From contig OZ025868.1 in assembly GCA_964019415.1 (NCBI GenBank), positions 4,461,107 through 4,525,106 of the forward strand: a stretch of 64,000 nt of DNA, written 5' to 3'. The stretch is from Ianthella basta. Its lineage: Eukaryota; Porifera; Demospongiae; Verongiida; Ianthellidae. The notes under the pieces are model-generated. The model had not been told where the DNA came from. It saw nothing but the letters and a program-made list of their open reading frames with translations, and searched no databases. Shown here piece by piece: positions 191-61,733 of this stretch; position 1 is the first letter of the stretch, and the number at the start of each line of letters is the position of its first letter. A program made the position numbers and the translations under genes.

Positions 191-1385
191 CATGTAGACT
201 AGTTCCAGATGTAGTGATACTTGGAGTTGGCAGGTGCATTAGAACTATATAGATGGCACATGAACTGTGCATTATTGATTATAACACAACAAAAGTTACA
301 TAAATATATCCAAGAACATGATACGTAGTATACCTCACCTTTAATGCCTTTATCAGTAGTGAAGTACCCCATGACCTTTGCCCTCTGCCCGTCTGCTCTC
401 TCTCCCTTCCTCACAGCCTCCACCTCAATCCTGTAAGTGGTGCCAGGTTGGAGGGAGGTCAGAGTGTGGGAGGTGTCACTGTCAGCAGGTTGGGTGACAT
501 TGATGGAAGCATCTTGGGTGGAGTGGGACACAGCGAACGAGTAGCACCTGGGGTAGCCAGCTGACCAGGTGACACTCAAAGTGGTTGCTGTACTACTTGC
601 CAAGTTCAAGTTGTAAATAATCACTTCAGCAGCTGGAAGATATATATAATAATTGCATATTAATTTTGCAAATGTGTAGAGCATAAACATTATTCATCGT
701 TCAATTTTGTGTTCTATTGTTCTAGGTTGCAAATGTCACAGTGAGTACCCTTGCATTCATACATTTAATTACTGAAGTACGTTTCAGTTTCTGGACTGAT
801 TCAGCTCAATTGTATCATTAGATCTAGCATTCAAGGGATGTCACAGTACAGTTAGAAAGGGTTTAATGGCACTAGTACTGTTGCTTATATTTGCATGTAC
901 CACATTCATTCTGCGGGATGTATAAATTGCTCTGTGGCTGTGATCCATTACTAAGAGCAGGCAGCCTGCGATACCCTGTTGCCAAGTTGGTGTAGCTGTC
1001 CACCACTACCTCCTGATAGGTGGCGGTGCGAGGGAGGACAGTGTGTCCAGGGATGTCAGAAGGGGTATTCGTTGTCTGACCACCAACAAGCCACCACACT
1101 GTCAGCAATCCCTCTACACCATCATACTGACACCTGAGGGTGATGTTACCAGTTCTACACACATAAGGGGCAGCTGGGTGGGTCTGAGTGAGGACCACTG
1201 AACCTGCACAGGACAAGACATGTGTACCGTAGCTGAAATACGAGTAATTGAAATTCTGAGCATTGCTATAAGCTCTTCATTTTGTTGCTAATACGAGTAT
1301 TTAGCTGTGATAACTGGGTTTGTTGGTTACCTGTAGTATCTGGCAATATCCAAAATAGAATCACAACCAAGAACGCTACCTCCAT
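191..1385 (-). CDS. A1: Ig-FnIII receptor, type A (3' part beyond window)
   Basis: Exons on the minus strand, in order: 1331-1385 (signal peptide, starts MEVAFLVVILFW), 904-1204 (Ig-like), 339-632 (FnIII), 191-244 (stalk, 18 codons, rich in Ser/Thr/Pro). Transmembrane and tail exons must lie left of base 1, because the near-identical copy A3 has them there. The Ig exon has the Cys pair and core Trp (LRCQY...VWWL) but its second core position reads GYRRL where paralogues have GYRC, so the canonical disulphide is lost. The FnIII exon has the core TLSVTW and TTYRIEVEAV strands. Junctions are phase 1. The donor after the Ig exon is damaged: a deletion of about 27 bp relative to A3 replaces GTGAGT by GTGGTA. 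Together these suggest a decaying copy, though the reading frame is open. Family identification is by eye; ligand unknown. Confidence 0.75.
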
Positions 1386-1474
1386 TTTGCTGTGTGCCTT
1401 CTATATGAGGTATATTATGCATTTCCTGGCCAGCTGAATAATTATTATGCAACTACTTTTGCACTTTAAATATC

Positions 1475-2198
1475 TATAGAGTGACTTGCGTGGGCGGATC
1501 AAAGGAATTTTGAGTACTTTATATTGCGTAATCTTGCAGAGTGCTTTATGGCCGTTCTTTATGGAAGTTAAAGAACGCTAGGTGAGCCATAAAGAACTCT
1601 AGCGAGAAACGCAAGCACTCAAACTTCCTCCTTACGCTTTTAAGGGTGGACTCTGTCCAGTGTGGTCTGACTGAGACCGCGAATTACACAATTACTTTTC
1701 ATTTCTGCCGAAGTGTGACCTCGACGCTCCGTAAGTTAAAGCCTAGCCTGCCACCCATCTTTTGCTTCTGAAAGGCGGCAACAAGTGCTTTAATGGCAAA
1801 GAAAGAGTGCTTCGCTAGTCTTTTTGCGGTTCTTGAACTGGCAGTCCGAGCGGGCATCTGCGCACTAGCTAGCTAGCTAGCTAGCCAAACGGATAGTAAC
1901 AACGGCAGGAAGTAGTTGCTCTTCTGCGATGCTAAAAAGAACATAGCGCAACTCAGACTTGTTCCATTAAGGCGCATTGAGAGTCTTCTTGCCAGTGAAG
2001 GACCGTTTTCGCCTGTTACTGCTACAGCTACTCGCTTCACTCTACCTTCCTTCTGATCAGAATGCGGTAAGTTTGAATGGAGTCAACCAATCGGATTACA
2101 GATGACGCAATGGAATCAGCCAAATATGGCTTGCAGATGACGCAATCGGAAAATGGAAGACTGAAGGCCGACCGTCCGCCCGCGCAAGTCACTCTATA
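1475..2198. mobile_element. MITE-like element with ~23-bp terminal inverted repeats
   Basis: Left end TATAGAGTGACTTGCG is mirrored by the right end CGCAAGTCACTCTATA, continuing into GGGCGG / CCGCCC. The homologous unit at 32.87 kb lacks this DNA entirely, so it is an insertion, probably at TA as in Tc1/mariner-like elements. The interior includes a TAGC tetranucleotide run (1867-1884) and a degenerate hairpin near 1545-1640. No transposase ORF is present. Confidence 0.7.
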
Positions 2199-2201
2199 TC
2201 A

Positions 2202-2360
2202 TTTAAAGTGGGCTAGGAGTGCTTTACGCGATTTATGGCACTCGGTGTGGGGGTCTCGTTGCGTGATAAAGCACTCGGCTTCGCCTCGTGCTTTATCAGC
2301 AACTCGACCCCCACACCTCGAGCCATAAATCGCGTAAAGCACTCCTAGCCCACTTTAAGT
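2202..2360. repeat. Long near-perfect hairpin next to the MITE
   Basis: An inverted repeat with arms of about 75 bp: TTTAAAGTGGGCTAGG at the left pairs with CCTAGCCCACTTTAAG at the right, with a tiny GGCTTCGCC centre. Absent from the duplicated copy at 32.9 kb, so it arrived with or beside the preceding MITE. A similar hairpin lies beside another element at 45009-45120. Confidence 0.75.
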
Positions 2361-2704
2361 AACATATACATGCACATGCATTGAAACTTATAATAAGAGT
2401 TTAATGCACGTCACTTGAATTGCAGTCTTGAACATGCATGTAGCTTGATTAAGTATATATATATATTCATAATTATTGTACGTATTATAGATAAATATTA
2501 ATTTGATGATTTCTTGAGCTCACAATGGAGATGGTCTCTGCCATAAGAGTTCTCTATCTAGGTAAGCTGTTTAAAAAACCTGTTCTACAGTTGTACAGCA
2601 ATTTTAAACATGATCTAGCTAAGGAATAAAAGCATGTACTGTACCATAACACAATTTCTAAATTTTCTTCGCACTTACACCTGAGAGGGAAGAGAATATA
2701 AAAT

Positions 2705-2752
2705 TAAAGACACTGTGTGTGCTGTGTGTGTGTGTGTGTGTGTGCATGTGTG
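2705..2752. repeat. (GT)n microsatellite
   Basis: Interrupted GT dinucleotide run; the duplicate at 33229-33302 is longer. It lies downstream of the B1 last exon. Confidence 0.85.
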
Positions 2753-3099
2753 TGAATGAATTCCTCATTCTGAAGTTATATGTACACTTTGTGTGTAATT
2801 TACAAACTACTTTAAACATATAGAATGAATATTTGATAGCCAAAATTAATGTACATCTATGTGCATCATGCAACATATCGATAGAGAAAACTATAATATA
2901 TATATATATATTATATATACATAATACTGTTTCTTGCACTGATATATGTAGCAGGATGGTGGATTGATATGTACCTGCATGCATGCATAGGTTGGGGTAA
3001 CCATTCTGCTACCATGCACCTTAATCAATAAATAAATGGATTATATACTAAACTACCTGCTTTACTTCACTTTCTACTGCAGTTCACCGGAAAATGGAA

Positions 3100-6000
3100 T
3101 CAAAATGTCCAGTGAAGTGTAAGCACAGGTATCAGCCAGATTACAATGCAAATTCCCGGCAAGGACCCACAGAAAGCTGAGGAATTCAATGGACCACATC
3201 AGACAAGATAACTCATTACGTTTGGTTCGATAGTTGTATAATTATAGAAACCATTGTGCAGGGCTATCAAATACCTGTATTTGCATCCAACATAGCGATA
3301 ATCTGTGGAGTTTCAATAGTCTCTGTATCCAACTCAGTTGCAACCACTTTCACCAAATATTGGACTCCATCATTAAGACTTCTGACGATGCAGTTCAAAG
3401 CTGTTATATTTGTGCATCCCCGGACAGCAGTATCATTTAAATAGACGGTAAACTTACGACACAAGTAATAGTCATGATCCCAGTGGACATGGAGTGTATT
3501 CCGCAATGGTACAACAAAAAAGTTGTGAATTGTTGCAGCAACATCTGGGTGAACAGACAGAACTGCAGTTTGTTAGATACTATATCTCTCTCCCATGCAT
3601 TCTGTACTCATATACCATACACTAACAATTACCAACCTTCAACCATAGGGATGGGAAAAGGCTCACTAACTTCCATTCTTTCATTAGGATACAAAGCAGC
3701 ACACCGGTAGCTGTTCTTTGCCGAATATACTGTATTGTTTACTTCAAGGTAAAGGGTTCCATTTTTCACTTTGGATGTATCAACTATGTGACCAGGAGTA
3801 AATGATGTAACTTGTTCAGGAACTCTTCCACCAACAAGGACAGTCCAGAATGCCGTTACAGGATCCTCAGAGAAGGTGCATTTGAGCTTGATATTGGGGC
3901 TATGGCAGGAGTAGTCAGCATTCTTGGGAAACACCTGTTCCACTGTACTGGCTGCATGTGCAACAAAACGGAATAGTAATATAAAGTGTTACAACACCCG
4001 CACTAAGCACCAGTAAAGAGTCTGTCGTCCTGTCTTTCCACTAGTGTTCTAATTTTGTACACATGCATGCAGCTTGAAAACCTCAAATATGCTTTTCTCG
4101 GGAAATAGCAGCTAGTTATCTGAAAGATAACGTTCGGAACTACACATGGTAAGGAAAGAAGGGAAAAATGACAGTGAACCGGATCAGCACCGGCAACCTC
4201 CAGATCTTTAGCCGACCCTTTAGCAGCCGGGTCACTGGTCACCGCCAACAGCCATTGATCCATTCCCTCCGTATATACCAATGTGGGTGGGCTCTATCCA
4301 GAGCCTCCTTTGAAACTCCCACACCCTAACCCACATCGGGCACTGACTAATCAGTGACACTCGGAAATGCTAATTAAGATGGTCTATGTACCATGGTGAC
4401 ACAAATGAAAGATAACGTTCAGAACTACACATGCCATTTTTCCCTTCCCCTTCTTTCTTTACCATTTGTAGTTCCGAACGTTATCTTTCATTTGTGTCAC
4501 CATGGTACATAGACCATCTTAATTAGCATTTCCGAGTGTCACTGATTAGTCAGTGCCCGGTGTGGGAGTTTCAAAGGAGGCTCTGAATAGAGCCCGCCCT
4601 CATCGGTATATAAGGAGGGAACGGATCAATGGCTGTTGGCGGTGACCAGTGACCTGGCTGCTGAAGGGTCGACTAAAGATCTGGAGGTTGCCAGAGCTGG
4701 TCCGGTTCACTGCCATTTTTCCCTTCCCCCCTTCTTTCCTTACCTATAAAACTAACCTTCATGGGGAGGCAACACCAAAGGTCTACTTTCTGCTTTAGAA
4801 CGGTCTTCATACACTTCATACACAGCAATGCATATATATCATCCAAGTTCGTTTGCACTAGCCAAAATTTCACAAGTTATCCAGACGTTATCCAGATGTT
4901 TCGGCAGCTTTCAGCCACCTTCATCAGTGAATGACAAAATACAGCACTCCTATAGACAGCATCACTGGAGAGAAAGATGAATGCCCAACTGATGAATCTT
5001 AAGTGATCTGGTCGCCTCCCCAATGATGTGTACGCACAATTGAGGAGCTCAGCTGGCAGGACCCCCCTGATGTATGGCCTACCTAAGGTGCACAAGCAGG
5101 ACGTCCCACTCCGCCCCATTGTGTCCTTCGTGTCCTCTCCGACATACCAGCTGTCCAAGTTCCTGGGCAGCATATTAGCTCCACTTGTCGGACGGACTAG
5201 CTCCTATGTGAGGAACTCGAAGTCCTTTGTTGATTTCATCACGACACAGACCCTGGCAGAGGATGAGATCCTACTATCCTTTGATGTGGTATCCCTCTTC
5301 ACCTGTGTCCCAACGGGGCTGGCTGTCCAGGTAGCCCGCCGCCGACTGGAGAATGATCCCTCCCTCCAGGACAGGACTGACCTCAACATTGATGACATCG
5401 TGGATCTCCTGACCATGTGCCTTGACGCAACCTACCTGTCCTTCAGAGGGAAGGTGTACCGGCAAGTACATGGTACCGCGATGGGGTCGCCTGTGTCTGT
5501 GGTTGTGGCCAACCTGGTAATGGAGGATGTTGAAGAGAGAGCCCTGACCACATTTCCCTCCCCTCCCCGCTTCTGGATGCGTTACGTAGACAATACGTGC
5601 ACAGCTCTCCCCAGGGACATGGTCGAGCCCTTCCATAAGCACCTGAACTGCATTGAGCCATGCATACAATTCACAGTGGAGGAGGAGTCGGGTGATAGGA
5701 AGCTACCTTTTCTGGATGTACAGCTTTGCAGGGATTGTGATGGCACTGTCACTACATCGGTGTATTGGAAGGCCACACACACCAACCAATACCTCTCCTT
5801 CACATCCCACCACCCGACGGCACACAAGGTAGCTGTGGTAAGTACCCTCATGACCAGAGCCAACACTCTTTCATCCTCAGGCGTGGAGAGAGTGCAGGAA
5901 GAGAAACAGATTGTAGAAGCACTGCAAGAGAATGGCTACCCCCCCAGCTTCATCCACAAACACTCGCACCCAAGGAGACCAAGACGGGAAATGGATGACC

Positions 6001-8391
6001 AGAGGCCCAGAACAACCCTGACCCTCCCTTACATTGCTGGTCTTTCGGAGGCAGTAAGACGGATTCTTGCACCGCTAGAAATCAAGGTGGTTTTCCGCCC
6101 ACAAAGCACTCTTCGCAGCTTACTTGTGCACCCCAAGGATCCAGTACCAATGGACCAACGGAAGGGGGTTGTGTACAGCGTGCCTTGTGATGGATGCTCC
6201 AAGGTGTACATTGGGCAAACTGGCCGGAGCCTCAAACACCGGCTGGCAGAACACAGACGTGCCCTGGAGAATGGAGATGTGGCAGCATCGGCCCTCGCAG
6301 AACACACCCTCGCAACAGGTCATCTGGTGGATCTCACCAAGTCAGAAGTAATTGACTGTCACCCATATGCCACCACACGCTGCCTATTGGAGAGTTGGCA
6401 TATACAACGGAACCCGGATGCACTGAATAGGGAGAAGGGAACCTTGCCTGAGGTGTACACTGCCCTCCTAGAGTAGATTACTATTGGATCTCTACTGTTA
6501 CTGCCTAACAAAATTCATTGACTGTTAAATTGTTACTTTAACGTTATTCATGGTCGCATCATCAACTGTCACCACATTTCATCACCTGTCACTAACATTT
6601 ATATATAAACTATAGGAGTGCTGTATTTTGTCATTCACTGATGACTGGCTGAAAGCTGTGTGAGGACTCTTAAGGGCTGAAAGCTGCCGAAACATCTGGA
6701 TAACTTGTGAAATTTTGGCTAGTGCGAATGAACAGGACTTTTCAAACGTGTCAAAAATGCATATATACCCCTTAAACTGTAACACCTCGAGCTTGCTGTA
6801 ATTTACTGATAGACGCAGTATGCCATTCTGCATTCTGGTGTTGTCAACTGCATGGCCAGCCAGAGCATTGCAATCCTTGGGTGTTCCGTTGACGGAGCAA
6901 AAGAATTACCCAATGCGATCTCTAGGTCCAAGTGACCCATAATAGTTGTTGTAATAGTTCAATGAAGAAATCTGGTATATTATTGACATGAAAATGTGTA
7001 TGGGCAATTTGCCTGAAATGTTGTGTATTCAGCAGAATTAAGGGATAATTTACATATGTTTCCAGTGTTAAATCAGGATGGTGGTTGTGTTGTGAGGCAT
7101 GACCTTGACACTTCACATCACTAGGGATGTCACGAGGAATGTGGTGTCGCTTACTACCGTGTGGGCTTAAATTTTTGCGGGACTAAACTTTCACAGTTTT
7201 CGCCTTTCCAGAAGCCATCCGCGAATAGTATAATCTGTGAATATATTGCGCAAAGTGTTGCGTATATGTAAGGTTTCACACGTACCTCGTGAATCGTTTC
7301 CCTGAATCACGATTAGCACTAGCGGTGTGCTGTTCCTTCCATGGGAACGAACTAATTTTGCTTGAATTGTGAAGCTAGCAATGGCCGATGAGTGTCAATG
7401 TAGCCCTGTAGGAAACTCACGTGCTGGAAGGCCGAAACGATGACAAATATGTGTGCAACGACTCTAGCAAAGGAAAATCAGGGTGAATTAGCCAAGCAGA
7501 ATAGTGCCATGGCTTCACTAGGCTCTTCCTTTCTGTGCTTGACTTGTGCGTTAATCTCCCTGTAAACGGTACAGTGCAGCAACACCATTCTGATTCCCTT
7601 ATCATTGTATTATTACAGATATATAGCACATAATATGAAATATAATATGAGTTAGCTAGTAATAGAAAAAATTGGCCATCCGTGAAAGAGTAGTCCTGCG
7701 AAAATTTAAGCCCATACGGTAACTCATGACATCAATTTCCTGCACCTAACACTTATAGGAGGCAGGAACAGACATGCCCTGACACGTTTCACTTGAATAG
7801 CCTTGCCAGTCTGACCAATTGCGAGCCTAAGGGTAATCTATTTTAAGCAGTTGAGTGTGGATGTTGACGACAATTTCCAGATTTGTAATTTCAAGTAACC
7901 GCTGTGAGTTGGGGATAAAGTAGAAGACAAATACATGCTGGGAGATTGTGAAAAGATTTTAAGATATTTACGTACACATGGCCTATGGAAGTGGACTGTA
8001 AGGGAGGTACCCTAAGAAATCCAGGGGAGTTTTATAGGAGGTGATTTCTCATACGGCAGGACAGGTGAAGAGATCCTCCAGCAGATTGTAAGTAATAAGA
8101 AAGCCCTTAAGAGTCCTCACACACAAGTTCGTCAGATAGGCACAGAGTGGATAGAGGATATTCAGTCTGCAATTTGCTTGTGTAATCGCAACATCACACA
8201 GTATGCTGACACCCATTAAAAGGTACGTAAAACTAAATACAATACATAGTAAGACTTACTTCCTACTGCTCCAAAGGGGGCGACAATGATGAAGAAGAGT
8301 ACCATACTGTATAAATTGCAAAGCAAAGCATATGAATGCATGTCCTGTGAGGAAATCACATGCATGGGCAAGTGAACACTTACACAAGCAT
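3100..8391 (-). CDS. B1: Ig-FnIII protein, type B, hydrophobic C-terminus without tail
   Basis: Minus-strand exons: 8384-8391 (start exon, only 8 coding bases), 8260-8306 (rest of signal peptide), 3637-3951 (Ig-like), 3275-3544 (FnIII), 3100-3176 (C-terminus). Joined they give 238 codons without a stop. The signal peptide reads MLVMVLFFIIVAPFGAVG. The Ig domain has SCHSPN, LKCTF, the core Trp (AFWTV) and YRCAA. The FnIII domain starts near PLRNTLHVHW. The last exon gives AFCGSLPGICIVIW followed by more hydrophobic residues and a stop, so the protein is GPI-anchored or a tail-less membrane protein (inference). Junctions are phase 1; acceptors and most donors are canonical, the Ig donor is GTTGGT. 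The intron between signal and Ig exons is swollen to about 4.3 kb by a SINE pair and a Penelope-like element, which may impair splicing. Confidence 0.75.
4121..4745. mobile_element. Head-to-head pair of tRNA-derived SINE-like units
   Basis: Two arms of about 300 bp are reverse complements: 4123-4430 and 4440-4745. Each arm carries a tRNA-like segment (right arm about 4630-4715: GGCGGTGACCAGTGACC ... GGTTCACTGCC, whose ends pair as an acceptor stem). In the right arm TATATAAG (4607-4614) lies roughly 30 bases upstream. Arm ends carry GTAGTTCCGAACGTTATC. The pair sits in the B1 intron. Confidence 0.65.
4876..4935 (-). ncRNA. Candidate hammerhead ribozyme in the left terminal repeat
   Basis: On the minus strand the core CTGATGA (4921-4927) is followed by a 7-bp stem II (GGTGGCT / AGCTGCC, 3-nt loop), then GAAAC (4898-4902) and, after an 11-nt loop, GTC (4884-4886) as the cleavage triplet. 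Stem I forms 5 bp between ATTCA before the core and TGGAT after GTC. Stem III has only two pairs (AC/GT), as in the minimal hammerheads known from Penelope-like elements. Orientation is opposite to the ORF, as expected for an inverted terminal copy. Confidence 0.6.
5010..6476 (+). pseudogene. Penelope-like reverse transcriptase + GIY-YIG endonuclease ORF (N-terminus missing)
   Basis: About 488 open codons after an in-frame stop at 5004-5006; no convincing ATG, and full Penelope-like proteins are considerably longer, so the N-terminus is lost. RT blocks in order: YGLPKVHK (near 5075), motif A SFDVVSLFTCVP (about 5277-5312), motif B GTAMGSPVSVVVANLV (about 5475-5520), motif C RYVDNT (about 5581-5598), then KLPFLDVQL. 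The GIY-YIG domain follows: VVYSVPC, KVYIGQTGRSLKHRLAEHR, EHTLATGH and an ESWHI block, with Cys/His residues typical of the Penelope endonuclease. Motif C normally reads YVDD; here the second catalytic Asp is Asn, which should abolish polymerisation. Enzymatically it would have copied RNA primed at a nick. Likely a dead copy. Confidence 0.85.
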
Positions 8392-14324: not shown

Positions 14325-16018
14325 TCAACTTGACACATTGATGTACTTGCTCTCCTGTGACTTGTAACTCATCTCAATGGGCAGGTAGGATGGGTTAGCC
14401 TGCAGCTTCTCTCCCTCCTCCTCCTCCTCCCTTGTTGATGGCTCCTCCCCTTCTGTACCTGCTTTTACACTGTCCCCTCCCCCTGCATGGAGGGAGGCAG
14501 CAGCCCTGCTTCACAGGAGGGACTGGGACAGCTGAGGAGTGCTGCACAACTCACCACCTCTCAGCTCAGCTCTGCACCTCTGCAGTCTCTTGTACATCAC
14601 TGCATGCACCACTGCACTGACTGTGCAGGTGGACAGTGACAGTGTCAACACAAGAGACAGCAGGACTGACAGTACCGTCACTGTCACTACAGTTTGTGGG
14701 GATGTAATGTCAACATAATGTGAAAACGTGAAAAACATAATAACCATTTAATTATATAAATAAATAGCATTACTCATGTGCATATGCATGCAATTGCATA
14801 ATTATAATACATCTCTGGAAAATACTCCATGCATACGTACCAGAAGCATATGATTGAACACTTGTAGGCGATAAGTAGATGATAGATGGTTCTAGATCTG
14901 GTGCTATTGCAGGATAATAATAGGTAGAGCAATAGAAATGTTATGAAATCCAATGCAACACATAACTGTCAATTCACCATTGACCATCTTACCTACAGGC
15001 GTTGTAGTGAAGTTCCCCATGACTTTTGCCCTCTGTCCATCTGCTCCCTCTCCCTTCCTCACAGCCTCCACCTTAATCCTGTAAGTGGTGTTGGCTTGGA
15101 GGCAGGTTACAGTGTGGGAGGAGCCACTGTCAGCAGTTTGGGTGACAGTGATGGAGCCATCTTGGGTGGAGTGAGACACAGTGAAGGAGTAGCACTTGGG
15201 GTAGCCAGCTGACCAGGTAACACTCAAAGTGGTGGCTGTTCTGTTTGTAAGAATCAAAGCAGAGATGTCTACCTCAGCAGCTGAAAAAGAAAGATAAATT
15301 AAGTGTTGTATGATCATGATTGTTCAAAGGTAAAAGCTGGTTGAGTGACATAAATTTGTGAACTGCCCACGGGTAAACACAGTCATGCTTACCAATGGAA
15401 ATATATGCATTATTATGTTTTTAAAACTTATTACAACTTCTTCCACAGCATACATACAGCTTCAGCACCATGCATGAACAAAAACTTGCTCTAGCAGTGC
15501 ATATAGCTAGTTGGACTGATGATGGTAGCACTCACACTCCTCCCGAGGGGTGTATAGATTGCTCTGTAGCTGTGGTGCTTTAGTGAGAATAAGCACACAG
15601 CGATACACTGTTGCCAAGTTGGTGTGGCTGTCCACCACTAGCTCCTGATAGGTGGTGTTGATGCGAGGGAGGACAGTGTGTCCAGGGTGGTCATGATCAG
15701 ATGGGGTAGATACTGTTTGACCACCAATATTCCACAACACAACCAACACATTCTCCACACCATCATACTGACACCTGAGGGTGATGTTGCCAGTTCTACA
15801 CACGTAAGGGGCAGCTGGGTAGGTCTGAGTGAGGACCACTGAACCTGTGCAAAACACTGAATCAAGACAGTTTGGCCGTGAAGTTATAGCTATAGACTTG
15901 GCAACAATATCAATAATTAAAACAATAATATGTTCTGGTGATCACTCAAACTGTGCTGATGAACTGTTCCAGACAGTATCCAGTACAGAACTGCAGCCAA
16001 AAATCTAATGGATTCCAT
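14325..16018 (-). CDS. A2: Ig-FnIII receptor with ITIM-like tail
   Basis: Minus-strand exons: 15952-16018 (signal, MESIRFLAAVLYWILSG), 15536-15844 (Ig-like), 14993-15280 (FnIII), 14841-14903 (stalk, 21 codons), 14555-14686 (transmembrane), 14325-14482 (tail). The joined frame is 338 codons. Ig core: LRCQY, VLW, VYRCV plus an extra Cys at PYVCRTG. FnIII: TTLSVTW, YPKCYSF, TTYRIKVEAV. Transmembrane segment TVLSVLLSLVLTLSLS, then MYKRLQRCRAEL. The tail is acidic (REEEEEGEK) and ends NPSYLPIEMSYKSQ, ESKYINVSS; SKYINV fits the ITIM consensus [SIVL]xYxx[ILV]. Most donors are canonical, but the signal-exon donor used here (GTTTGA at 15946-15951) is weak and differs from GTAACC in the sister copies. 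Likely a single-pass surface receptor; ligand unknown. Confidence 0.8.
14483..14554 (-). other. Conserved 72-nt intron of type A genes
   Basis: Starts GTGAGTTGTG and ends CTCCATGCAG between the transmembrane and tail exons. It is exactly 72 nt also in A3 (31103-31174), A4 (48612-48683), A5 (60216-60287) and the fragment (59624-59695). If retained, translation adds about 15 residues (GELCSTPQLSQSLL) and stops, removing the tyrosine tail. Confidence 0.75.
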
Positions 16019-17446: not shown

Positions 17447-18820
17447 CTAGATAGAGAACACACATGCTACCATTATAATAACAAGTAGCATCCAAGTACG
17501 ATTCCCAGCAACTGCACTACAGAAAGCTGAGGGAAAGGAATCAACATAGACAAAGTGATTTAACCAAATTTTGCATATATAGACAATTATGCGTAAGTAG
17601 CCACATATATAGCTATTACATACCTGCACTTGCATCCACAACTGCTGATGCTTCAATAGGATCAGATCCTGACCTGGTTGCAGCTAATTTTATGTTATAA
17701 TGGATTCCATGATCAAGATTCTCAATGGTACAGTTCAAGGCTGTTATATTGGTGCATCCAGGAACCGCAGCATCATTCAAATAGACAGTAAAGTTGAGAC
17801 ACCAGTAGTAGTCATGATTCCACTGGACAGTGAGGGTGTTTTGCATTTGCTGAACACACATTGTCAAGTTGTATATCGGTGCAGCTAGGTCCGATCATGA
17901 AAGCAAGAAATAAAATTTGTTAGGTAATACCTCTCCCCATTCAATGTGTTTATATGCATAGAACACAGCGTACAGTACACATAAATTTACAAACCTTCAG
18001 CCATAGGGATTGAAAAAAGATCACTATAGGCCGTACTCCCATCAGCATATACAGCAGTGCAGCTGTAGCTGTTGTTCTTTGAATACCTTTTGTTCATCTC
18101 AAGGTAAATCATCCCCCTTTGCATTTTAGAGGAATCGACTGTGTGACCAGGAGTGGACTGGTTAACTGTCGCAGAGTTCTTGTCATCACTGACAGTCCAA
18201 AATGCAGTTATTGGATCCATAGGAAAGTTACACTTGAGCATGAAGTTCGGAGAATGACAGGAGTAGTTGTCCTCAGGAAATATTTGGTCAATAGTGATGG
18301 CTGCATGCATGTATGTGCAAAACAAATTAATGCAACAACTACTTTCAGTAAAAAAAAACTTGCAGGGCTGCCGCCCCAATTCGAACACTTGCTCCCTTCT
18401 GTCACTATTCTGAATTCAATATAAAACTAATAATGCATAAGTCATGAACACACTTGAGCACACACTTCATAGTCACAAATGAACACAAACATATATTTAT
18501 TTGCACAGATCATTATATAGTCACAAGCAGGCAACTGTGCAGCAACAAACTAACTCAACACACAGTTTGCACATTCTCAAGAAGTTGCCATAAACTCAAG
18601 CACATTCAGTTGTCTCTCACACACACCCCGCACTGATACACACACAAACACACATGCGTGCACACACAGCACACAGATGCATGCATGTACACACACATGC
18701 ATGCATGCACACACACATGCATGCATGCACACACATGCGCATGCATGCACGCATGCACACACACGCACACACACCCACACCCACACCCACACCCACACAC
18801 ACACACACCACACACACACA

Positions 18821-30947: not shown

Positions 30948-32787
30948 TCAATTTGACACATTGATGTATGTGCTCTCTTGTGACTTGTAGCTCATCTCAA
31001 TGGGCAGGTAGGATGGGTTAGCTTGCATCTTCTCTCCCTCCTCCTCCTCCCTTGTTGGTGGCTCCTCCCCTTCTGGATCTGCTTTGACACTGTCCCTTCC
31101 CCCTGCATGGAGGGAGGCAGCAGCCCTGCTTCACAGGAGGGACTGGGACAGCTGAGGGGTGCTGCACAACTCACCTCCTCTCAATTCAGCTCTGCACCTC
31201 TGCAGTCTCTTGTACATCACTGCATGCACCACTGCACTGACTGTGCAGGTGGACAGTGACAGTGTCAACACAAGTGACAGGATGATTGATAGCACTGTCA
31301 CTGTGGCTTGACAGCTGCAGGTGCCTGCATGATGATAACGAAAACCTCAGTGCATTATTGAGGACCAATCATGGGAATATAGTCTGCATATATGCTATAA
31401 TTTAAGCTATCTGTAGTAAAGTGTGCCCCCAAAATATACAATACCTTCGTGACATGTGCGCACACACAAACACACACACACACAGCTATACGTGTAGCTA
31501 GCCAATTATTAGCAGTTTTACGCATGCATGTGGAGTAGCATATAGCTAAGTCCTCACTCACCATGTAGACTAGTTCCAGATGTAGTGATACTTGGAGTTG
31601 GCAGGTGCATTAGAACTATATAGATGGCACATGAACTGTGCATTATTGATTATAACACAACAAAAGTTACATAAATATATCCAAGAACATGATACGTAGT
31701 ATACCTCACCTTTAATGCCTTTATCAGTAGTGAAGTACCCCATGATCTTTGCCCTCTGCCCGTCTGCTCCCTCTCCCTTCCTCACAGCCTCCACCTCAAT
31801 CCTGTAAGTGGTGTCAGGTTGGAGGGAGGTCAGAGTGTGGGAGGTGTCACTGTCAGCAGGTTGGGTGACATTGATGGAGCCATCTTGGGTGGAGTGGGAC
31901 ACAGTGAAGGAGTAGCACTTGGGGTAGCCAGCTGACCAGGTGACACTCAAAGTGGTGGCTGTCCTGCTTGCCAAGGTCAAGTTGTAAATAATCACTTCAG
32001 CAGCTGAAAGATATATATAATAATTGCATATTAATGTAATTATGCAAATGTGTAGCACATAAACATTATTCGTCTTTCAATTTTGTGCTTTATTGTTCAA
32101 GGTTGCAAATGTCACAGTGAGTACCCTTGCATTCATACATTTAATTACTGAAGTACGTTTCAGTTTCGGGACTGATTCAGCTCAATTGTATCATCAGATC
32201 TAGCATTCAAGGGATGTCACAGTACAGTTAGTAAGGGTTTAATGGCACTAGTACTGTTGCTTATATTTGCATGAACACTTGATCACAGCTGCAAGTGGCA
32301 CTCACATTCATTCTGCGGGATGTATGAATTGCTCTGTAGCCCTGATCCATCGCTGAATGTAGGCACACAGCGATACCCTGTTGCCAAGTTGGTGTAGCTG
32401 TCCACCACTACCTCCTGATAGGTGGCGGTGCGTGGGAGGGCAGTGTGTCCAGGGATGGTGGATGGGTTGGTTGTTATCTGACTTACAACAAGCCACACCA
32501 CAGTCATCAATTCCTCTACACTATCATACTGACACCTGAGGGTGATGTTACCAGTTCTACACACATAAGGGGCAGCTGGGTGGGTCTGAGTGAGGACCAC
32601 TGAACCTGCACAGGACAAGACATGTGTACCGTAGCTGAAATATGAATAATTGAAATTCTGAGCATTGCTATAAGCACTTCATTTTGTTGCTAATAAGAGT
32701 ATTCAGCTGAGATAACTTGGTGTGTTGGTTACCTGTAGTTCCGGGCAATATCCAAAATAGAATCACAACCAAGAACGCTACCTCCAT
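30948..32787 (-). CDS. A3: Ig-FnIII receptor with ITIM-like tail
   Basis: Minus-strand exons: 32733-32787 (signal, MEVAFLVVILFWILPGTTG), 32306-32605 (Ig-like), 31710-32003 (FnIII), 31562-31615 (stalk), 31175-31300 (transmembrane), 30948-31102 (tail). The joined frame is 327 codons. Ig core: LRCQY, VWL, GYRCV, with the extra Cys at PYVCRTG. FnIII: TTLSVTW, YPKCYSFTV, TTYRIEVEAVRKGEG. The transmembrane segment TVLSIILSLVLTLSLS leads to MYKRLQRCRAELR. The tail carries REEEEGEK, PSYLPIEMSY and ends ESTYINVSN; STYINV fits the ITIM consensus. Donors GTAACC, GTGAGT, GTGAGG are canonical and every junction is phase 1. The closest relative of A1 (left edge), from a recent duplication of an A+B block. 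Well-preserved; expected at the cell surface. Confidence 0.85.
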
Positions 32788-33650: not shown

Positions 33651-34500
33651 TCAAAACGTCCAGTTAAGTACAAGCACAGGTACCAGCCAGATTACAATGC
33701 AAATTCCCGGCAAGGATCCACGGAAAGCTGAGGAATTCAATGAGCCACAACAGACAAAGGCAACTCATTATGTTTGGTTGTTTGATATGCAGGAACCATT
33801 GTGCAGGGCTATCAAATACCTGCATTTGCATCCAACATAGCGATAATCTGTGGAGTTTCAATAGTCTCTGTATCTAGCTCAGTTGCAACCACTTTCACTG
33901 AATATTGGACTCCATCATTAAGACTTCCAATGGTGCAGTTCAAAGCTGTTATATTTGTGCAATCCTGGACAGCAGTATCATTTAAATAGACGGTAAACTT
34001 ACGACACAAGTAATAGTCATGATCCCACTGGACATGGAGTGTATTCCGCAATGGTACAACAGAAAAGTTGTGAATTGGTGCAGCAACATCTGGGTGAATA
34101 GACAGAACTACAGTTTGCTACATAGACACTGTATATCTGTCCTATGCATTCCACACTCATATATCATACACTAACGTTTACCAACCTTCAACCATAGGGA
34201 TGGGAAAAGGCTCACTAGCTTCCGTTTTTTCATTAGGATACAAAACAGCACACTGGTAGCTGTTTTTTGCCGAATATACTGTGTTGTTCACTTCAAGGTA
34301 AAGGGTTCCATTTTTCACTTTGGATGCATCAACTATGTGACCAGGAGTGGATGATGTAACTTGTGCAGGAACTCTTCCACCAACAAGGATAGTCCAGAAT
34401 GCCGTTACAGGATCCTCAGAGAAGGTGCATTTGAGCTTGATATTGGGGCTATGGCAGGAGTAGTTAGCATTCTTGGGAAACACCTGTTCCACTGTACTGG
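33651..34500 (-). pseudogene. B2: type B Ig-FnIII copy with no signal exon found
   Basis: Minus-strand exons: 34186-34500 (Ig-like), 33820-34089 (FnIII), 33651-33727 (C-terminus AFRGSLPGICIVIW, then hydrophobic residues and stop). Same lengths as B1 exons and all frames intact. Ig core: SCHSPN, LKCTF, AFWTI, YQCAV. FnIII: TLHVQWDHDYYLC, TNITALNC. The two short start exons that precede B1 and B3 were not found between 34.5 and 47 kb, where unrelated repeats begin at about 35.2 kb. Without them the copy lacks a start codon and secretion signal; it may be a young pseudogene, use a distant first exon, or belong to a rearranged assembly. Confidence 0.65.
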
Positions 34501-48456: not shown

Positions 48457-48970
48457 TCAATTTGACACATTGATGTACTTGCTCTCTTGTGACTTGTAGC
48501 TCATCTCAATGGGCAGGTAGGATGGGTTAGCCTGCATCTTCTCTCCCTCCTCCTCCTCCCTTGTTGGTGGCTCCTCCCCTTCTGGACCTGCCTTGACACT
48601 GTCCCCTCCCCCTGCATGGAGGGAGGCAGCAGCCCTGCTTCACAGGAGGGACTGGGACAGCTGAGGGGTGCTGCGCAACTCACCACCTCTCAGCTCAGCT
48701 CTGCACCTCTGCAGTCTCTTGTACATCACTGCATGCACCACTGCACTGACTGTGCAGGTGGACAGTGACAGTGTCAACACAAGTGACAGGAGGACTGACA
48801 GCACTGTCACTGTGGTTTGACAGCTGCAGGTGCCTGCATGATGATAACGAACACCTCAGTGCGTTATTGAGGACCAATCATGGGAATATAGTTTGCACAT
48901 AATACTATTATAAGTTATCTGTAGTAAAGTGTGTTTCAAAAACTATACAGTCTTTTAGGGACATGTGCAT

Positions 48971-49006: not shown

Positions 49007-50263
49007 CTATACGTGTAGCTAGCCAATTATTAGCAGTTTTACACATGTGGAGTAGCATATAGCTAAGTCCTCACTCACCATGTACACTAGTTCCAGATGT
49101 AGTGATACTTGGAGTTGGCAGGTACATTAGAACTATATAGATGGTACATGAACTGTGCATTATTGAGAACACAACAAAAGTTACATAACTATATCCAAGA
49201 ACATGATACGTAGTATACCTCACCTTTAATGCCTTTATCAGTAGTGAAGTTCCCTGTGACCTTTGCCTTCTGTCCATCTGCTCCCTCTCCCTTCCTCACA
49301 GCCTCCACCTCAATCCTGTAAGTGGTGTCAGGTTGGAGGGAGGTCAGAGTGTGGGAGGTGTCACTGTCAGCAGGTTGGGTGACATTGATGGAGCCATCTT
49401 GGGTGGAGTGGGACACAGTGAAGGAGTAGCACTTGGGGTAGCCAGCTGACCAGGTGACACTCAAAGTGGTGGCTGTCCTGTTTGCCAAGGTCAGGGAGGA
49501 GATGTTCATCTCAGCAGCTGGAAGATACACAATATGTTATGCATAGAGCATGCGTCACCCTCTATATGGTATAATACACGCTCACATAGGTATGCTAGAA
49601 GCATGTTGCATATAGCTATGCACTTCTATTCTTATCGTTAACCGCTTCATTAGTTTTGGGCTGATTAATTGTGTATCATTCTAGAATACATACAGCACAT
49701 GCTGGAATGGCAAATTGCACTCTGAATACAGAATTGGTATAGCTAATTTTTGGCCTACATCTAAGCTTGTTCACACGAAAGTAGCACAAACATTCACTTT
49801 GAGGGCTATATGTATTGCTCGGTGGCTTTGATCCATTGCTGAGATCAAGCAAACATCTATAGCCTGTTGCCAAGTTGGTGTAGTTGTCCACCACTACCTC
49901 CTGATAGGTGGTGGTGCGAGGGAGGGCAGTGTGTCCAGGGATGGTGGATGGGTTAACGTTGGCTGTTATCTGACCAGCAATATTCCACAGCACAAATTTG
50001 AGCACATTCTCCACACCATCATACTGACACCTGAGGGTGATGTTACCAGTTCTACACACATAAGGGGCAGCTGGGTGGGTCTGAGTGAGGACCACTGAAC
50101 CTGTACAAGATTGGGAACCCATTTGGTGACTCACAAACACTTACATTATCAAGCTTGATTACAACTTCAATAAAATTATACCGAGGGATACAGTGGTCTG
50201 ATTACCTTCGGTCCCAGACACTATCCATGATAGCAGCACAACCAAGAACCTGCTGAACACCAT
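48457..50263 (-). CDS. A4: Ig-FnIII receptor with ITIM-like tail
   Basis: Minus-strand exons: 50206-50263 (signal, MVFSRFLVVLLSWIVSGTEG), 49792-50100 (Ig-like), 49224-49517 (FnIII), 49079-49132 (stalk), 48684-48809 (transmembrane), 48457-48611 (tail). The joined frame is 331 codons. Ig core: LRCQY, VLW, GYRCL; extra Cys at PYVCRTG; glycosylation-type NIT and NGS sites. FnIII: ISSLTLANRTATTLSVTW, YPKCYSFTV. Stalk: LMYLPTPSITTSGTS. Tail: REEEEGEK, PSYLPIEMSY, ESKYINVSN, again with an ITIM-like SKYINV. Junctions are phase 1; the Ig donor is GTTTGT rather than GTGAGT. Right neighbour is C, left the duplicated spacer. Complete and open, so one of the best candidates for an active copy. Confidence 0.85.
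48973..49004. repeat. (CA)n microsatellite
   Basis: CA run in the intron between transmembrane and stalk exons of A4; counterparts at 84-113 and 31462-31483. Confidence 0.9.
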
Positions 50264-50298
50264 TTTGAATGATTATGAATGGCTTGATATATATGAAT

Positions 50299-51064: not shown

Positions 51065-52547
51065 TCATGTCCCTGCATGGGAACCTGTCCCAAATTTTCT
51101 AACTACCGGAGACAGCCCGTCTTGTCTTCTCATACAAAAGTAGATGCTTTTCATCTTCTCGAGTGTAGCACACCCACACAATCCAGCTATGACTGCACAC
51201 AGGCAACAGGCAAGTATCAAAACAGCAATGGCCACCGCAATGCAAACTATAATTCTAACAGGTTGCATAATTTGATGTGGATCTGCAACAGGAAGCACAC
51301 ACACAACATACAACGTCATGCAGTTTTCACTAGCTGAACAAAGGTATTCCACGAATGCATGACATATCTTCTATGCTTAATAACACATACCTAAAGTTGA
51401 CACATTAAGGCCTGCAAAATCATCTGCCGTATTGTGCTCTCTGGCAATGACCATCACATTGTATTCAGTACCAGGTTCAAGGTGTTCAATATGACAGCTC
51501 CTTGTTCCAGGTTCCAAACGCTCACAGTAAAGGATGGTCTCACTGTTCAACAGAACTGTAATGAGTTTACAGTGTATGTATTTATGGTCCCATCCTACGT
51601 CTAGTGAATTGGCAGTGATGTTTTCGGTGAAAACTGTGAAGTTGGCGTCTGTGCCTGTGAATGTATTGACACACAAAAAGCACATTACTGCAACAGTTAC
51701 TATAATTATACTATTACCATAGATCATTACAACTGACCTTCACTGGGAGGCAACGTGATGGGATCACTGTCATCTGTAGAGCCGTTGTTAAGCACAACAG
51801 TGCACCTGTAGCGAATCTTGCTTGGTAACACTCCACTGTCATTAACAGTAAGAGCTGCCCAATTCTGCATGTTGGCTCTGCTGACAGTATGCATATGGCC
51901 ATTGAGGTCTTCTACCTTCTCCCAGTGTGTGCCATTGACTGGTCTAATATACCAATGCACAGCCAATATATCACTTGAGAAGGTGCAGTTAAAGATGGTA
52001 CTTGGGGACTGGCAACGGTACTGGTCTGTTCCTGGGTATATGCGCCAACCTATCACGCTACCTAGGACAATGTTAGAGAGTAGAGGTGGCGGACACAGTG
52101 GAAGACAAACACATACTGGGAGATCTTGAAATGATTTCAAGATACGTAAATGGCCTCCACAGAAGTGGAACATGAGGAAGGTACCCAAGAAGGCAGGACA
52201 AACGTAATGAAGGCATCTTATTATAGAGTGGGTCATGTGAGAATTTCCAGCTAAGCGTAATAAAAAAAGTCATTAAGAGTCCTCACATACAAGTCCGTCA
52301 GCTAGGGACATAGCAGATAGAAGTGCCCTTGGTCTGTAATTGGCTTGTGTGATCACAACAGCACACAGCCCACTGACACCCATCAAAATACAGCCAATAG
52401 TCCTTACTTTTTACAGCAGAGGTGGTGGCCACGATGAAGAGAAGTATCACCCTGTATAAATTGCAAAGCAAGTACATATGTATGAACACTAGACCTGTGA
52501 GAACATCACATTAAATGAGCAATGAACACTTACGTAGACACTGTCAT
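51065..52547 (-). CDS. C: divergent Ig-FnIII transmembrane protein
   Basis: Minus-strand exons: 52534-52547 (start, 14 bases), 52408-52451 (signal), 51738-52061 (Ig-like), 51391-51654 (FnIII), 51065-51282 (transmembrane and tail). The joined frame is 287 codons. Signal: MTVSTVILLFIVATTSAVK. Ig core: YRCQSPS, FNCTF, VHWYI, YRCTVVL; glycosylation sites NGT and NGS. FnIII: NFTVFTENITANSLDVGW, LEPGTEYNVMVIA. Transmembrane segment RIIVCIAVAIAVLILACCLC, then AVIAGLCGC (possible palmitoylation Cys, inference) and a basic tail of about 35 residues with RRQ and VVRKF, without an ITIM. Introns upstream of the Ig exon align with those of B1/B3, so C occupies a B slot and is a B paralogue with a replaced C-terminus. 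All donors are canonical (GTAAGT, GTAAGG, GTCAGT, GTATGT). Confidence 0.8.
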
Positions 52548-54597: not shown

Positions 54598-54649
54598 GTG
54601 GTAATGAATCTCTATTCTATCAACAAACATTAGTAATGAAAAGATGGTA

Positions 54650-57660: not shown

Positions 57661-57674
57661 GTTTCTAAATGTAT

Positions 57675-58454: not shown

Positions 58455-58489
58455 TAGCTACGTATATACATATGTTAGCTATGTACAAT

Positions 58490-59000: not shown

Positions 59001-59477
59001 ACCAAGGGAAATTTCCTGCAACGAGTTGCTTTGCGTGTACAAAACATCGACCGCAACATCGGCAATAGTGGAGCGATTAGAGAGCGAGCAGATAAGATCT
59101 AGCAAGAAACAATACATTGCCAGACTACCTAGCTGTCTGGAAGATAGCTAAAGGATCCCGGAGCTTACTAAGACATGAGCTACTTAGCTAGCCTAGCCTA
59201 TAGCTATAGCTAGCTGGCTGCACGTAAAGATTAGCTAATTTGATGACTGATGCATATGAATAAGAGGTAAACTGAAATGCACATTATCTACCGTTATATA
59301 GCTATTATTGTGCATACCATGCCTTCAGACATAGTAATGCATATTGATACACACTGTTATGTAGGTAGTGTTACTGTTATAGTGGTAGCTAGCTACACAT
59401 GCTTGTCTCACATTCATGATCTGATCTAGCTACATTGTAAGAGTTAAATTCCATTCTGCATTCTTCCACTTGACACA

Positions 59478-59739
59478 CTAACGTACTTGCTGTCTTGTGA
59501 TTTGCAGGGCAGTAATGGGCAGCTGCAAGTAGGATGGGTTAGCCTGCATCTTCTCTCCCTCCTCCTCCTCCTTTGTTGGTGGCTCCTCCCTTTCTGGACC
59601 TGCTTTGACACTGTCCCCTCCCCCTGCATGGAGGGAGGCAGCAGCCCTGCTTCACAGGAGGGAGTAGGACAGCTGAGGGGTGCTGCACAACTCACCACCT
59701 CTCAACTCAGCTCTGCACCTCTGCAGCTCTTGTACATCA
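59478..59739 (-). pseudogene. Truncated type A fragment: tail and part of transmembrane exon
   Basis: 59478-59623 matches the tail exon (KEEEEGEKMQANPSYL) and 59696-59739 the 3' end of the transmembrane exon, with the 72-nt intron intact between. Homology stops at 59739, so the helix and ectodomain are gone. An insertion after PSYL shifts the frame and ends in TRQQVR, losing the ITIM-like end. A dead fragment left by unequal exchange next to A5. Confidence 0.75.
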
Positions 59740-60072
59740 TAAGCCCTTGGGCGTCTTATACACGCTACCTAACATTAATCTTATTTTTAAGTTATAGCTA
59801 CACCTAATAATTTGGTCATCAGACATACATTGGTTGTGTGGTATAGCTAGCTACTGATATGATGCCCTGTTGTTACCAGTGAATGCTCAGGAAATGGTCA
59901 TGTGACATGCTTCCCCTGATATGGAGCAGACTATAAATTGCGTACAGCTCATGTGAGACTGTGTATGCACAACAGATACAAGTGGTCAACAAATATTGAA
60001 TATGAAAGGTATTGAATGCTTGCTGTAACTGAAAATACATTAATGCACTAGCAAGTCTGAATGAGCCCCAAT

Positions 60073-61733
60073 CTACAGAGATGTATTGACTGCCGTTGGA
60101 CTCAACATCTCAATGGGCAGGTAGGATGGGTTAGCTTGCATCTTCTCTCCCTCCTCTTCCTCCCTTGTTGGTGGCTCCTTCCTTTCTGGACATGCTTTGA
60201 CACTGTCCTCTCCCCCTGCCTGGAGGGAGGCAGCAGCTTTGCTTCACAGGAGGGACTGGGACAGCTGAGGGGTGCTGCACAACTCACCACCTCTCAGCTC
60301 AGCTCTGCACCTATGCAGTCTCTTGTACATCACTGCATGCACCACTGCACTGACTGCGCAGGTGGACAGTGACAGTGTCAACACAAGACACAGGAGTAGT
60401 GTCAGCACTGTCACTGTGACTGTGGTTTGAGATGGGATTATATAAAGATAATATGCATTATATAACTGTATTATTTTTCTATCATAATTCAAAGTTGAAT
60501 TAATTTTGTCATAATTGAATGATATGTATATTCTGTACACCAACTTTGATTTATATTGTCTTCACATTTGCGGTGCATACATTTACCTGCATATGCAGAA
60601 AGGAGAAAATGTCAATTAATTTTGTATTCACTGTACATGCAGCATGACATTGAAGGCAGTGTATTTGTGTAGCTGCACATGCAATACATGTGGAGATGAA
60701 TTTTTGATCTTACATACTTATGTACTCAGCAGTGGTGAAGTTCCCCATGACCTTTGCCCTCTGTCCGTCTGCTCTTTCTCCCTTCCTCACAGCCTCCACC
60801 TCAATCCTGTAAGTGGTGCCAGGTTGGAGGGAGGTCAGAGTGTGGGAGGTGTCACTGTCAGCAGGTTGGGTGACAGTGATTAAGCCATCTTGGGTGGAGT
60901 GGGACACAGTGAAGGAGTAGCACTTGGGGTAGTCAGCTGACCAGGTGACACTCAAAGTGGTGGCTGTCCTGCTTATCATGGTCAGGGAGGAGATGGTCAC
61001 CTCAGCACCTGGAAGATATATGTGGTGGTTGTACTTTCTATATAGAAGGTATAATAATTATAGACTCATTATACAATGTTGTGTATACAAGTCCATTCAT
61101 AGTAATCACACTTCAGTTTCTTGACTGATTCAATAGTCTGTCATTTTGAAATATGTACATGCAAGCTTATATGGCATGGGATGGCAAATTTTAGTTAATA
61201 TCAACAAAGAGATTAGTTACTGATCTACGCACATATTAGTCTGAATACAGGAAGTAGCACTCACGTTCAATTTGAGGACTGTATGCATTGCTCTGTAGCT
61301 GTGATCCATTGGAGAGAGTAAGCACACAGCGATACACTTGTACCAAGTTGGTGAAGCTGTCCACAACTAATTCTTGAAAGCTTAAGGCAGTGGTGTTAGG
61401 GAGGGCAGTATTAGTGTGTCCAGGGAAGGTTGATAGGCTGGATACTGTCTGACCACCAATAGTCCACAGCACAACTAATACATTCTCCACACCATCATAC
61501 TGACACCTGAGGGTGATGTTACCAGTTCTACACACATAAGGGGCAGCTGGGTGGGTCTGAGTGAGGACCACTGAACCTATACGTGTAGTGATAATTAGGA
61601 TTAAACAAGAATTTAAAATCATCATTAACAATTCATTGTTGACAAAAGTTAGACATAAGGTAAGTTGGTTACCTACTGTTCCTGTCAGTGACCATAATAG
61701 AATCACAACCAAGTACGTTAACTGTGCCTCCAT
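60073..61733 (-). CDS. A5: Ig-FnIII receptor, stalk absent and tail altered
   Basis: Minus-strand exons: 61673-61733 (signal, MEAQLTYLVVILLWSLTG), 61265-61576 (Ig-like), 60718-61008 (FnIII), 60288-60419 (transmembrane), 60073-60215 (tail). The joined frame is 312 codons. Ig core: LRCQY, VLW, VYRCV; FnIII: TTLSVTWSADYPKCYSF. The FnIII donor is GTATGT, three codons later than in other copies; no stalk exon was recognised between 60420 and 60718, though one could be missed. Transmembrane: TVLTLLLCLVLTLSLS. The tail keeps REEEEGEK and PSYLPIEM but then diverges to LSPTAVNTSL and stops, so the SxYINV motif is lost. Functional but with changed signalling, or an early pseudogene. Confidence 0.75.

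Follow-up and report, generated by a model that had tools for sequence, protein, structure and literature searches.

A very large tandem cluster of Ig-FN3 receptors with variable tips and a near-uniform tyrosine tail as a likely recognition locus

Tandem immunoglobulin (Ig) receptors with tailed and tail-less members are familiar from vertebrates, where they include the KIR, LILR, SIRP and CEACAM families, the last with glycosylphosphatidylinositol (GPI)-anchored members. The present report concerns genes of a comparable tandem type, encoding one Ig-like and one FN3 domain each, which were studied in a stretch of 64,000 nt (C1:4461107-4525106, referred to as the window) and in the surrounding genome of 209 Mb in 96 contigs. 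To judge from the parts of the papers drawn on here, the nearest described systems are the Hydractinia Alr complex (PMC11067881, PMC12065747) and Botryllus FcoR (PMC12065747). Hydractinia Alr1, Alr2 and their relatives, with which the present clustered family of Ig-like receptors may be compared, form a large cluster of single-pass Ig superfamily (IgSF) proteins with polymorphic ectodomains and pseudogenes, and immunoreceptor tyrosine-based inhibitory (ITIM) as well as activation-type (hemITAM/ITAM) motifs are reported for candidate Alr genes (PMC12065747, in the part consulted). Overall identity between Alr proteins is described as low in the corresponding part of PMC11067881. Botryllus FcoR of the fuhc locus resembles the present genes in that Ig-type receptors with tyrosine motifs each lie beside a gene of a partner family, according to the same portion of PMC12065747. 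In sponges, aggregation factors and the Geodia Ig-like adhesion molecules have been proposed as recognition or adhesion molecules (for part of these, PMC11999971). No such large tailed Ig-FN3 cluster appears in the available portions of the literature on sponge Ig receptors and allorecognition (including PMC11999971 and PMC4704026), which are partly off the subject and leave its absence unproven.

Around the window extends a cluster of ~1.9 Mb, of which the window covers one part; about 150 A-type exon matches were scored there, and well over a hundred near-copies are present. It is fairly probable from the sequence that we are dealing with one very large tandem complex, located on a single contig of chromosome size, of single-pass receptors with a variable tip and a uniform tail, most likely devoted to polygenic self/non-self (allo-) or microbe recognition. 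The original prediction, made from the letters of the window, had suggested such a recognition locus. Its suggestion is upheld in so far as a multigene Ig-FN3 family of this extent with V-loop-like variability was found, and a role in recognition appears likely. A clustered IgSF-like family with variable ectodomains, as in an allorecognition complex, is present by sequence, its variation being paralogous, not allelic.

Gene copies in the window were located by tblastn, with A4 exons as queries for A genes and B3 and C exons for B and C genes. All nine genes found (five A, three B and one C) lie on the minus strand and alternate, which confirms the single-strand array that had been predicted. 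Along the plus strand their order is A1, B1, A2, B2, A3, B3, A4, C, A5, and A1, A2, A3 and A4 each have a B or C gene directly 5'. A-type genes encode single-pass proteins consisting of signal peptide, Ig, FN3, transmembrane (TM) segment and a tail of ~60-70 aa. This exon order was read base by base for A4 only; there the predicted design with phase 1 junctions fits, all four exon junctions being readable as phase 1. The features, all on the minus strand (-), are as follows.

337..633 (-), A1 FN3 exon, tblastn
905..1204 (-), A1 Ig exon, tblastn with A4 exons; F-strand Cys lost (YRR)
about 1326-1385 (-), A1 signal peptide
3103..3177 (-), B1 C-terminal exon, FCGSLPGICIVIWLIPVLTLHWTF then stop; without K, R, D, E, GPI-signal-like by eye
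3273..3545 (-), B1 FN3 exon, tblastn
3635..3937 (-), B1 Ig exon, tblastn
6801..6857 (-), possible B-type Ig fragment, weak, tblastn E 0.034
14328..14477 (-), A2 tail exon, NPSYLPI ... SKYINVSS, tblastn
14553..14684 (-), A2 TM exon, tblastn
15003..15281 (-), A2 FN3 exon, tblastn
15537..15845 (-), A2 Ig exon, tblastn
15965-16006 (-), A2 signal peptide, weak match
17447..17526 (-), B2 C-terminal exon, FCSAVAGNRTWMLLVIIMVACVFSI then stop; GPI-signal-like, one R ahead of the hydrophobic run
17622..17891 (-), B2 FN3 exon, tblastn
17993..18286 (-), B2 Ig exon, tblastn
30951..31094 (-), A3 tail exon, NPSYLPI ... STYINVSN, tblastn
31173..31313 (-), A3 TM exon, tblastn
31708..32004 (-), A3 FN3 exon, tblastn
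32307..32606 (-), A3 Ig exon, tblastn
32728-32787 (-), A3 signal peptide
33651..33728 (-), B3 C-terminal exon, FRGSLPGICIVIWLVPVLVLNWTF then stop
33818..34090 (-), B3 FN3 exon, under the Pfam FN3 cut-off
34184..34486 (-), B3 Ig exon, tblastn
48460..48606 (-), A4 tail exon, NPSYLPIEMSYKSQESKYINVSN, ends SKYINVSN; a 72-nt intron separates TM from tail
48682..48822 (-), A4 TM exon, base-by-base reading
49222..49518 (-), A4 FN3 exon, base-by-base reading
49793..50101 (-), A4 Ig exon, codons 1-28 a near-invariant block, remainder variable
50201..50263 (-), A4 signal-peptide exon, base-by-base reading
51065..51283 (-), C TM segment and short cytoplasmic tail, ~30 cytoplasmic residues
51389..51652 (-), C FN3 exon, tblastn
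51736..52062 (-), C Ig exon, tblastn
from 52477 (-), C candidate signal peptide
59468..59618 (-), extra frame-shifted copy of the tail exon, SKYVSVSS, tblastn E 0.049
60106..60207 (-), A5 tail piece with NPSYLPIEM, then LSPTAVNTSL and stop; no YINV
60286..60417 (-), A5 TM exon, tblastn
60731..61006 (-), A5 FN3 exon, tblastn
61266..61577 (-), A5 Ig exon, tblastn
61668-61733 (-), A5 signal peptide

TM segment and damaged tail of A1 lie outside the window (locus L029), and the tail match there is without the NPSY part. The A5 tail reads NPSYLPIEMLSPTAVNTSL and then stops, without YINV.

The array of five plus four genes had to be rejected as the whole system, the window being one slice of the larger cluster. 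Since only the best 150 candidates were scored in each genome search, counts of A-type copies are lower bounds on matches. With the A FN3 query, the best 150 of 370 candidates fell on C1:3.72-5.55 Mb (148) and C35 (2), and 144/150 contained no stop (rows counted by hand). The 49-aa tail query placed 148 of its best 150 (of 183) on C1:3.72-5.65 Mb and again 2 on C35. For A Ig, the best 150 of 196 comprised 144 matches on C1, 2 on C35 and 4 on C2; the latter (C2:14.678-14.702 Mb) are weak, lie off the main cluster and include three with stops. The B Ig query gave 34 matches of 54 candidates, 33 of them on C1, and the hydrophobic C-terminus of B gave 12, all on C1. The C Ig query gave 31: besides itself, two at 85% identity (one partial) and others at 47% or less. 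About 30 B/C-type relatives are, by similarity, present within part of the complex.

The A genes were analysed in the dense stretch C1:3.715-3.915 Mb, 200 kb with 15 kb of N in three 5-kb runs. A4 queries gave 50 TM, 64 tail, 77 Ig and 55 FN tblastn matches there, overlapping fragments counted. The genes are arranged head to tail; the spacing is often 2-3 kb, and the largest gaps measure ~10 kb. Between ~3.725 and 3.827 Mb they occupy the plus strand, elsewhere the minus strand. Solitary fragments of the Ig start, several of them RTGNITLRCQYDGVENVL, were observed in this stretch 226-333 nt after tail stops; by hand count such a fragment, in the same orientation, comes after 15 of the A genes, and the fragments are perhaps scars of the duplication unit. 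A second subfamily, A', has a TM of its own, for which 7 copies at 94-100% identity were found, one of them containing a stop, besides 3 weaker ones.

Near-identical segments occur within the cluster. Several equal-score pairs of A Ig matches are spaced about 133-139 kb, 783 kb or 979 kb, and two segments compared with the window agreed at 99.74% over 4.26 kb and 98.96% over 3.73 kb. Such segments, together with the three N runs and with stops in some copies, could be taken to mean that the cluster is mostly an assembly artefact or a decaying satellite-like repeat with few working genes. The coding state of the genes makes this very improbable. From the dense stretch and the window, 53 TM-anchored gene models were built, 42 of them with Ig, FN, TM and tail. 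In 39/53 there was no stop in any of the four matches, and 14/53 were broken or incomplete; the 39 are an upper bound on intact genes, because a break may lie beyond the end of a tblastn match. In modelled genes, for example, the Ig exons at 3819949 and 3866646 have short frames. The Ig exon starts of the dense 200 kb were picked by their first 28 codons, not by openness, and 42/49 remained open for at least 92 codons. This is more than chance: in a substitution-only neutral simulation 38% stayed open at 0.1 substitutions per site, 20% at 0.2 and 12.7% at 0.28. Moreover, strong differences in the variable Ig part and in introns separate most copies of the dense stretch from one another.

Divergence is distributed very unevenly along the genes. 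Mean amino-acid identity was 0.66 for Ig (n=42), 0.85 for FN (41), 0.95 for TM (42) and 0.89 for the tail (40). In the same order, median synonymous divergence (dS) was 0.56, 0.16, 0.084 and 0.112, and the ratio of nonsynonymous to synonymous differences per site (pN/pS) was 0.60, 0.52, 0.30 and 0.45 (40-42 genes). Intron distances were 0.54 between Ig and FN (33 genes), 0.44 between FN and TM (37) and 0.036 between TM and tail (41). Shuffled FN-TM introns align at a distance of 0.67 and 239/666 pairs have a blastn match, so this intron is still partly homologous. Within the Ig exon, codons 1-28 are nearly fixed (pN 0.048, pS 0.077), and pS reaches 0.45-0.60 after codon 28. Variable positions, placed by the C-W-YxC pattern and not from a structure, are grouped about the C-strand Trp and behind the F-strand Cys, an arrangement like that of V-type domains. 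In 136 pairs with pS up to 0.2, pN/pS was 1.16 in the post-Cys stretch and 0.77 in the middle stretch. In the 35 pairs with pS up to 0.1 it was 1.26 and 0.95, and the near-fixed N-half also reached 1.26. Positive selection on Ig loops is not shown by these values.

Low-divergence blocks mostly start and stop at or near exon ends, and divergence rises directly beyond the stop. Two places depart from this, the FN3 exon in its initial ~45 nt and the Ig exon, which has a boundary in its interior. Copies are near-identical in the Ig start, in the FN3 core and in the block from TM through intron 4 to the tail; other introns and flanks differ. Conversion mediated by mRNA was considered as a cause of this exon-bounded similarity, and both the rise after the stop and the conserved intron 4 oppose its simple form.

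Spearman correlations (rho) between pairwise distances of different parts of the same genes were computed for 39 genes, those of the 42 whose tail match reaches the end, and were weak or absent. Variable Ig distances correlated at -0.12 with tail, -0.12 with the 3' flank, 0.09 with TM and 0.14 with intron 1, the last exceeding all but 5 of 500 permutations. Values of 0.23 with FN and 0.35 with the adjacent intron 2 exceeded all 500. In a control of reliability for eight parts (TM, tail, intron 4 and Ig start not among them), the correlation was 0.42-0.83 between even and odd columns of a part and 0.13-0.75 between its halves. Variable Ig distance was below 0.1 in 38 gene pairs. Among the 30 of these with the lowest 3'-flank values, the flank distance was below 0.1 in 5 and at least 0.30 in 25, and the other 8 pairs were at 0.52 or more. 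Intron 1 distance was up to 0.20 in 17/30 and that of the start of intron 3 up to 0.26 in 15/30. Close to the variable Ig, linkage thus persists in part, and at the 3' end most of it has disappeared.

The lack of correlation between 5' and 3' distances within genes points to exchange. Exchange between members of the array would be the simplest cause of decoupled gene parts, and would also explain the uniform TM-intron4-tail block. The 85-nt Ig exon start, the FN3 core and the TM-intron4-tail block, all near-identical DNA, might serve as footholds for recombination, by which variable Ig tips would again and again be combined with a single common pYxNV/NPxY signalling tail. More tentatively, and with rather less than even confidence, the locus may be a germline shuffling machine. 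An early-branching animal would then possess, in well over a hundred genes, a complex similar to histocompatibility or immune-receptor loci that uses Grb2-type rather than ITIM/ITAM signalling. Clustered protocadherins and Dscam, adhesion and patterning families that give cells their identities, offer another comparison. A family conferring developmental identities would equally suit a variable tip on a constant tail, and the FN3 match is in line with it, FN3 being common in adhesion molecules. However, the present genes are complete tandem genes and not alternative exons, and 14/53 broken models together with mosaic exchange would seem more typical of recognition families; we regard a patterning role as improbable.

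The claim that A2, A3 and A4 end in SxYINV proved right once the last intron of 72 nt was removed (SKYINV, STYINV and SKYINV, respectively). In A4 this intron reads GTGAGT...ATGCAG, and the same donor/acceptor rule gives 72 nt in A2 and A3 and an in-frame NPxY tail in 42/49 TM-to-tail blocks of the dense stretch and window. With the intron kept, A4 protein ends in ...STPQLSQSLL and tail tyrosines are absent. The A4 intron (window 48607-48682) and its relatives are ~96% identical over 41 genes, and if retained the 72 nt would encode a recurring ending without Tyr. The intron might possibly act as a splice switch between signalling and silent forms.

Tail motifs were counted in an alignment of 69 non-overlapping tail matches (E up to 1e-3, dense part and window), in which not every tail covers every site; the frame-shifted copy at 59468 (SKYVSV) and the A5 tail, which lacks the third tyrosine, were excluded. 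The first tyrosine (Y1) is present in 69/69, with N of NPxY in 68/69 and P in 67/69, the second (Y2) in 58/67 and the third (Y3) in 63/65. The tail also carries NPSYxP[ILV], and NPxY is a PTB motif. Position +2 of Y3 is N in 64/64 and +3 is V, M, L or I in 64/64, which is the sequence pattern expected for Grb2-type docking (pYxN, hydrophobic +3). Position -2 is S in 53/65 and H, Q or N in the remaining 12/65. Since +2 N is invariant while -2 varies, YxN-hydrophobic is the more constant element, not the -2 residue of an ITIM. The whole tail block is homogenised, so tail copies are not independent witnesses.

These counts bear on the paired-receptor reading, suggested in outline by the original prediction, in which the A genes would be inhibitory, their ITIMs recruiting an SHP-type phosphatase, and B and C would be their activating partners. 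Of the 60 YxN motifs contained in 62 tail reading frames, 47 fit the ITIM consensus, a count selected on YxN. A phosphatase with the order SH2-SH2-PTP, as in SHP, is suggested twice at C16:0.69-0.71 Mb by match positions, exons not being joined or aligned, and the position of a B or C gene 5' of A1-A4 also suits the pairing. The consensus fit stands as a count; against its weight, 20,000 tail shuffles matched ITIM in 9.3% of cases, YxN-hydrophobic in 3.1%, NPxY in 1.3% and NPxY plus YxN-hydrophobic in 0.025%, and the -2 position varies as described. The tail is thus better described as YxNV plus NPxY. A GRB2-like order, SH3-SH2-SH3, occurs three times at C15:6.227-6.237 Mb (again match positions, exons not joined), so with both gene sets present either tail reading has candidate machinery. 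Grb2 SH2 prefers pYXNV according to the part of PMC5302901 consulted, and Grb2-family SH2 domains bind pYxN, which three LAT sites fit, in that of PMC6669380. A pYxNV site of the CD22 Y828 type sits in an inhibitory receptor (PMC5302901, same limit), so the motif does not decide between activation and inhibition.

The B and C genes speak against the pairing in their turn. The final residues of B1, B2 and B3 (ICIVIWLIPVLTLHWTF, MLLVIIMVACVFSI and ICIVIWLVPVLVLNWTF, respectively) directly adjoin the stop, and these proteins are tail-less as had been predicted; C does not fit this description, having a TM segment and its cytoplasmic residues, with no charged residue seen by eye in its hydrophobic core. 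Activating receptors of the adaptor-coupled (DAP12) type use a charged TM residue. In B1-B3 there is no K, R, D or E within or after the hydrophobic run. Being uncharged and flush with the stop, the ends argue against DAP12-type activating receptors and for GPI anchoring. By eye they show the traits of a GPI signal, a hydrophobic C-terminus without charge that runs up to the stop and is preceded by small residues, and B1-B3 look GPI-anchored. Furthermore, B3 and C queries detected a single B-like locus in the dense 200 kb, which weighs against the pairing. Altogether, an ITIM/activating-pair system is unlikely.

The preferred interpretation, a recognition complex with a shared tail, has to reckon with several results that weigh against it. 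FN3 (PF00041, Pfam cut-off 25) was recognised in A4 (43.3 bits) and C (28.4), B3 staying below at 18.4, and the Ig domains of A4, B3 and C fell below all Pfam cut-offs (A4: Ig_2, E=0.062). A sequence search of solved structures in PDB gave no match to A Ig at E up to 1; the B/C Ig profile gave only weak antibody, T-cell receptor and PECAM matches, the best at E 0.14. The outer domain of A, B and C is called Ig-like because of its C...W...YxC pattern, on which the assignment rests. A simple upstream scan found no convincing signal peptides for B1-B3. The two A' tails read (L040, L041) have two modules with HQYMNV and the last Tyr changed to Cys, and in L040 the first NPxY is NPSN; their HQYMNV and lost Tyr are unfavourable to an ITIM as well. 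Near-identical segments may be recent duplications or unpurged haplotypes that inflate the counts, an ambiguity that leaves the gene count uncertain in both directions. Over paralogues pN/pS is not clearly above 1, Ig overall included. Tail conservation was rejected as proof of selection on the tail peptide and is not creditable to it alone, because the adjoining 72-nt intron is equally conserved and blocks are mostly exon-bounded. Finally, as variation in TM and tail is slight, not much can be read from the low correlations of these two parts, and the weight of the mosaic test rests on flanks and introns.

On the recognition reading, the variable Ig tip would bind diverse self or non-self surface ligands, and clustering would lead to phosphorylation of the tail on Y1 (NPSYxPI) and Y3 (YxNV). 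The phosphorylated tail would dock a PTB protein and a Grb2-type SH2 protein, possibly an SHP-type phosphatase too. B1-B3 might be GPI-anchored partners, decoys or ligands without a signal of their own. Recombination between near-identical blocks would keep the tail uniform and re-pair Ig tips with it, and the outcome would be many specificities with one output.

Some neighbouring and distant features were observed besides. Open frames at window 5007-6476 (+) and 53791-54558 (-), with GIY-YIG-like VYIGQTGR and VYIGETGR, resemble Penelope-like elements (reverse transcriptase plus a GIY-YIG-like part), to which we presume they belong. C6:5.95-7.1 Mb and C12:4.4-6.1 Mb are crowded with tyrosine-phosphatase domain matches (at least 175 in the search, best 150 of 689 candidates scored), and the C6 region also has FN3 matches; possibly a second giant family, of receptor phosphatases, is located there. 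At C6:3.13 Mb, tandem cathepsin-L-like genes (L033) read NQGEIGDS at the catalytic Cys region and are probably inactive as cysteine proteases. L032 and L039 have ordinary CGSCW sites, among 8 of 45 Peptidase_C1 matches that were inspected for silicatein as a sponge marker. Gene style would suggest a sponge, though as a guess.

Should the lineage be an early-branching one such as a sponge, the cluster would provide a concrete, mappable candidate for a tissue-recognition receptor locus. It would also be a natural case of how a large recognition family is renewed, one tail staying near-identical in many copies while tips and segments are exchanged.

The locus differs from vertebrate paired receptors in that B1-B3 lack a charged TM residue and the tail fits pYxNV better than ITIM. 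YINV and YVNV follow the pattern of CD22 Y828 and LAT pYxN sites, as given in the parts of PMC5302901 and PMC6669380 consulted; the rest of those proteins differs, and docking of YINV/YVNV here is predicted. Botryllus FcoR has a V-Ig, sushi and two C2-Ig domains, and its tail motifs vary between members (PMC12065747, in the part describing them). Hydractinia Alr is an allorecognition complex; the present cluster is likened to it by description. It differs from Alr in its ~150 A-type exon matches, in its composition of one Ig and one FN3 domain, and in the near-identical tail that its members share.

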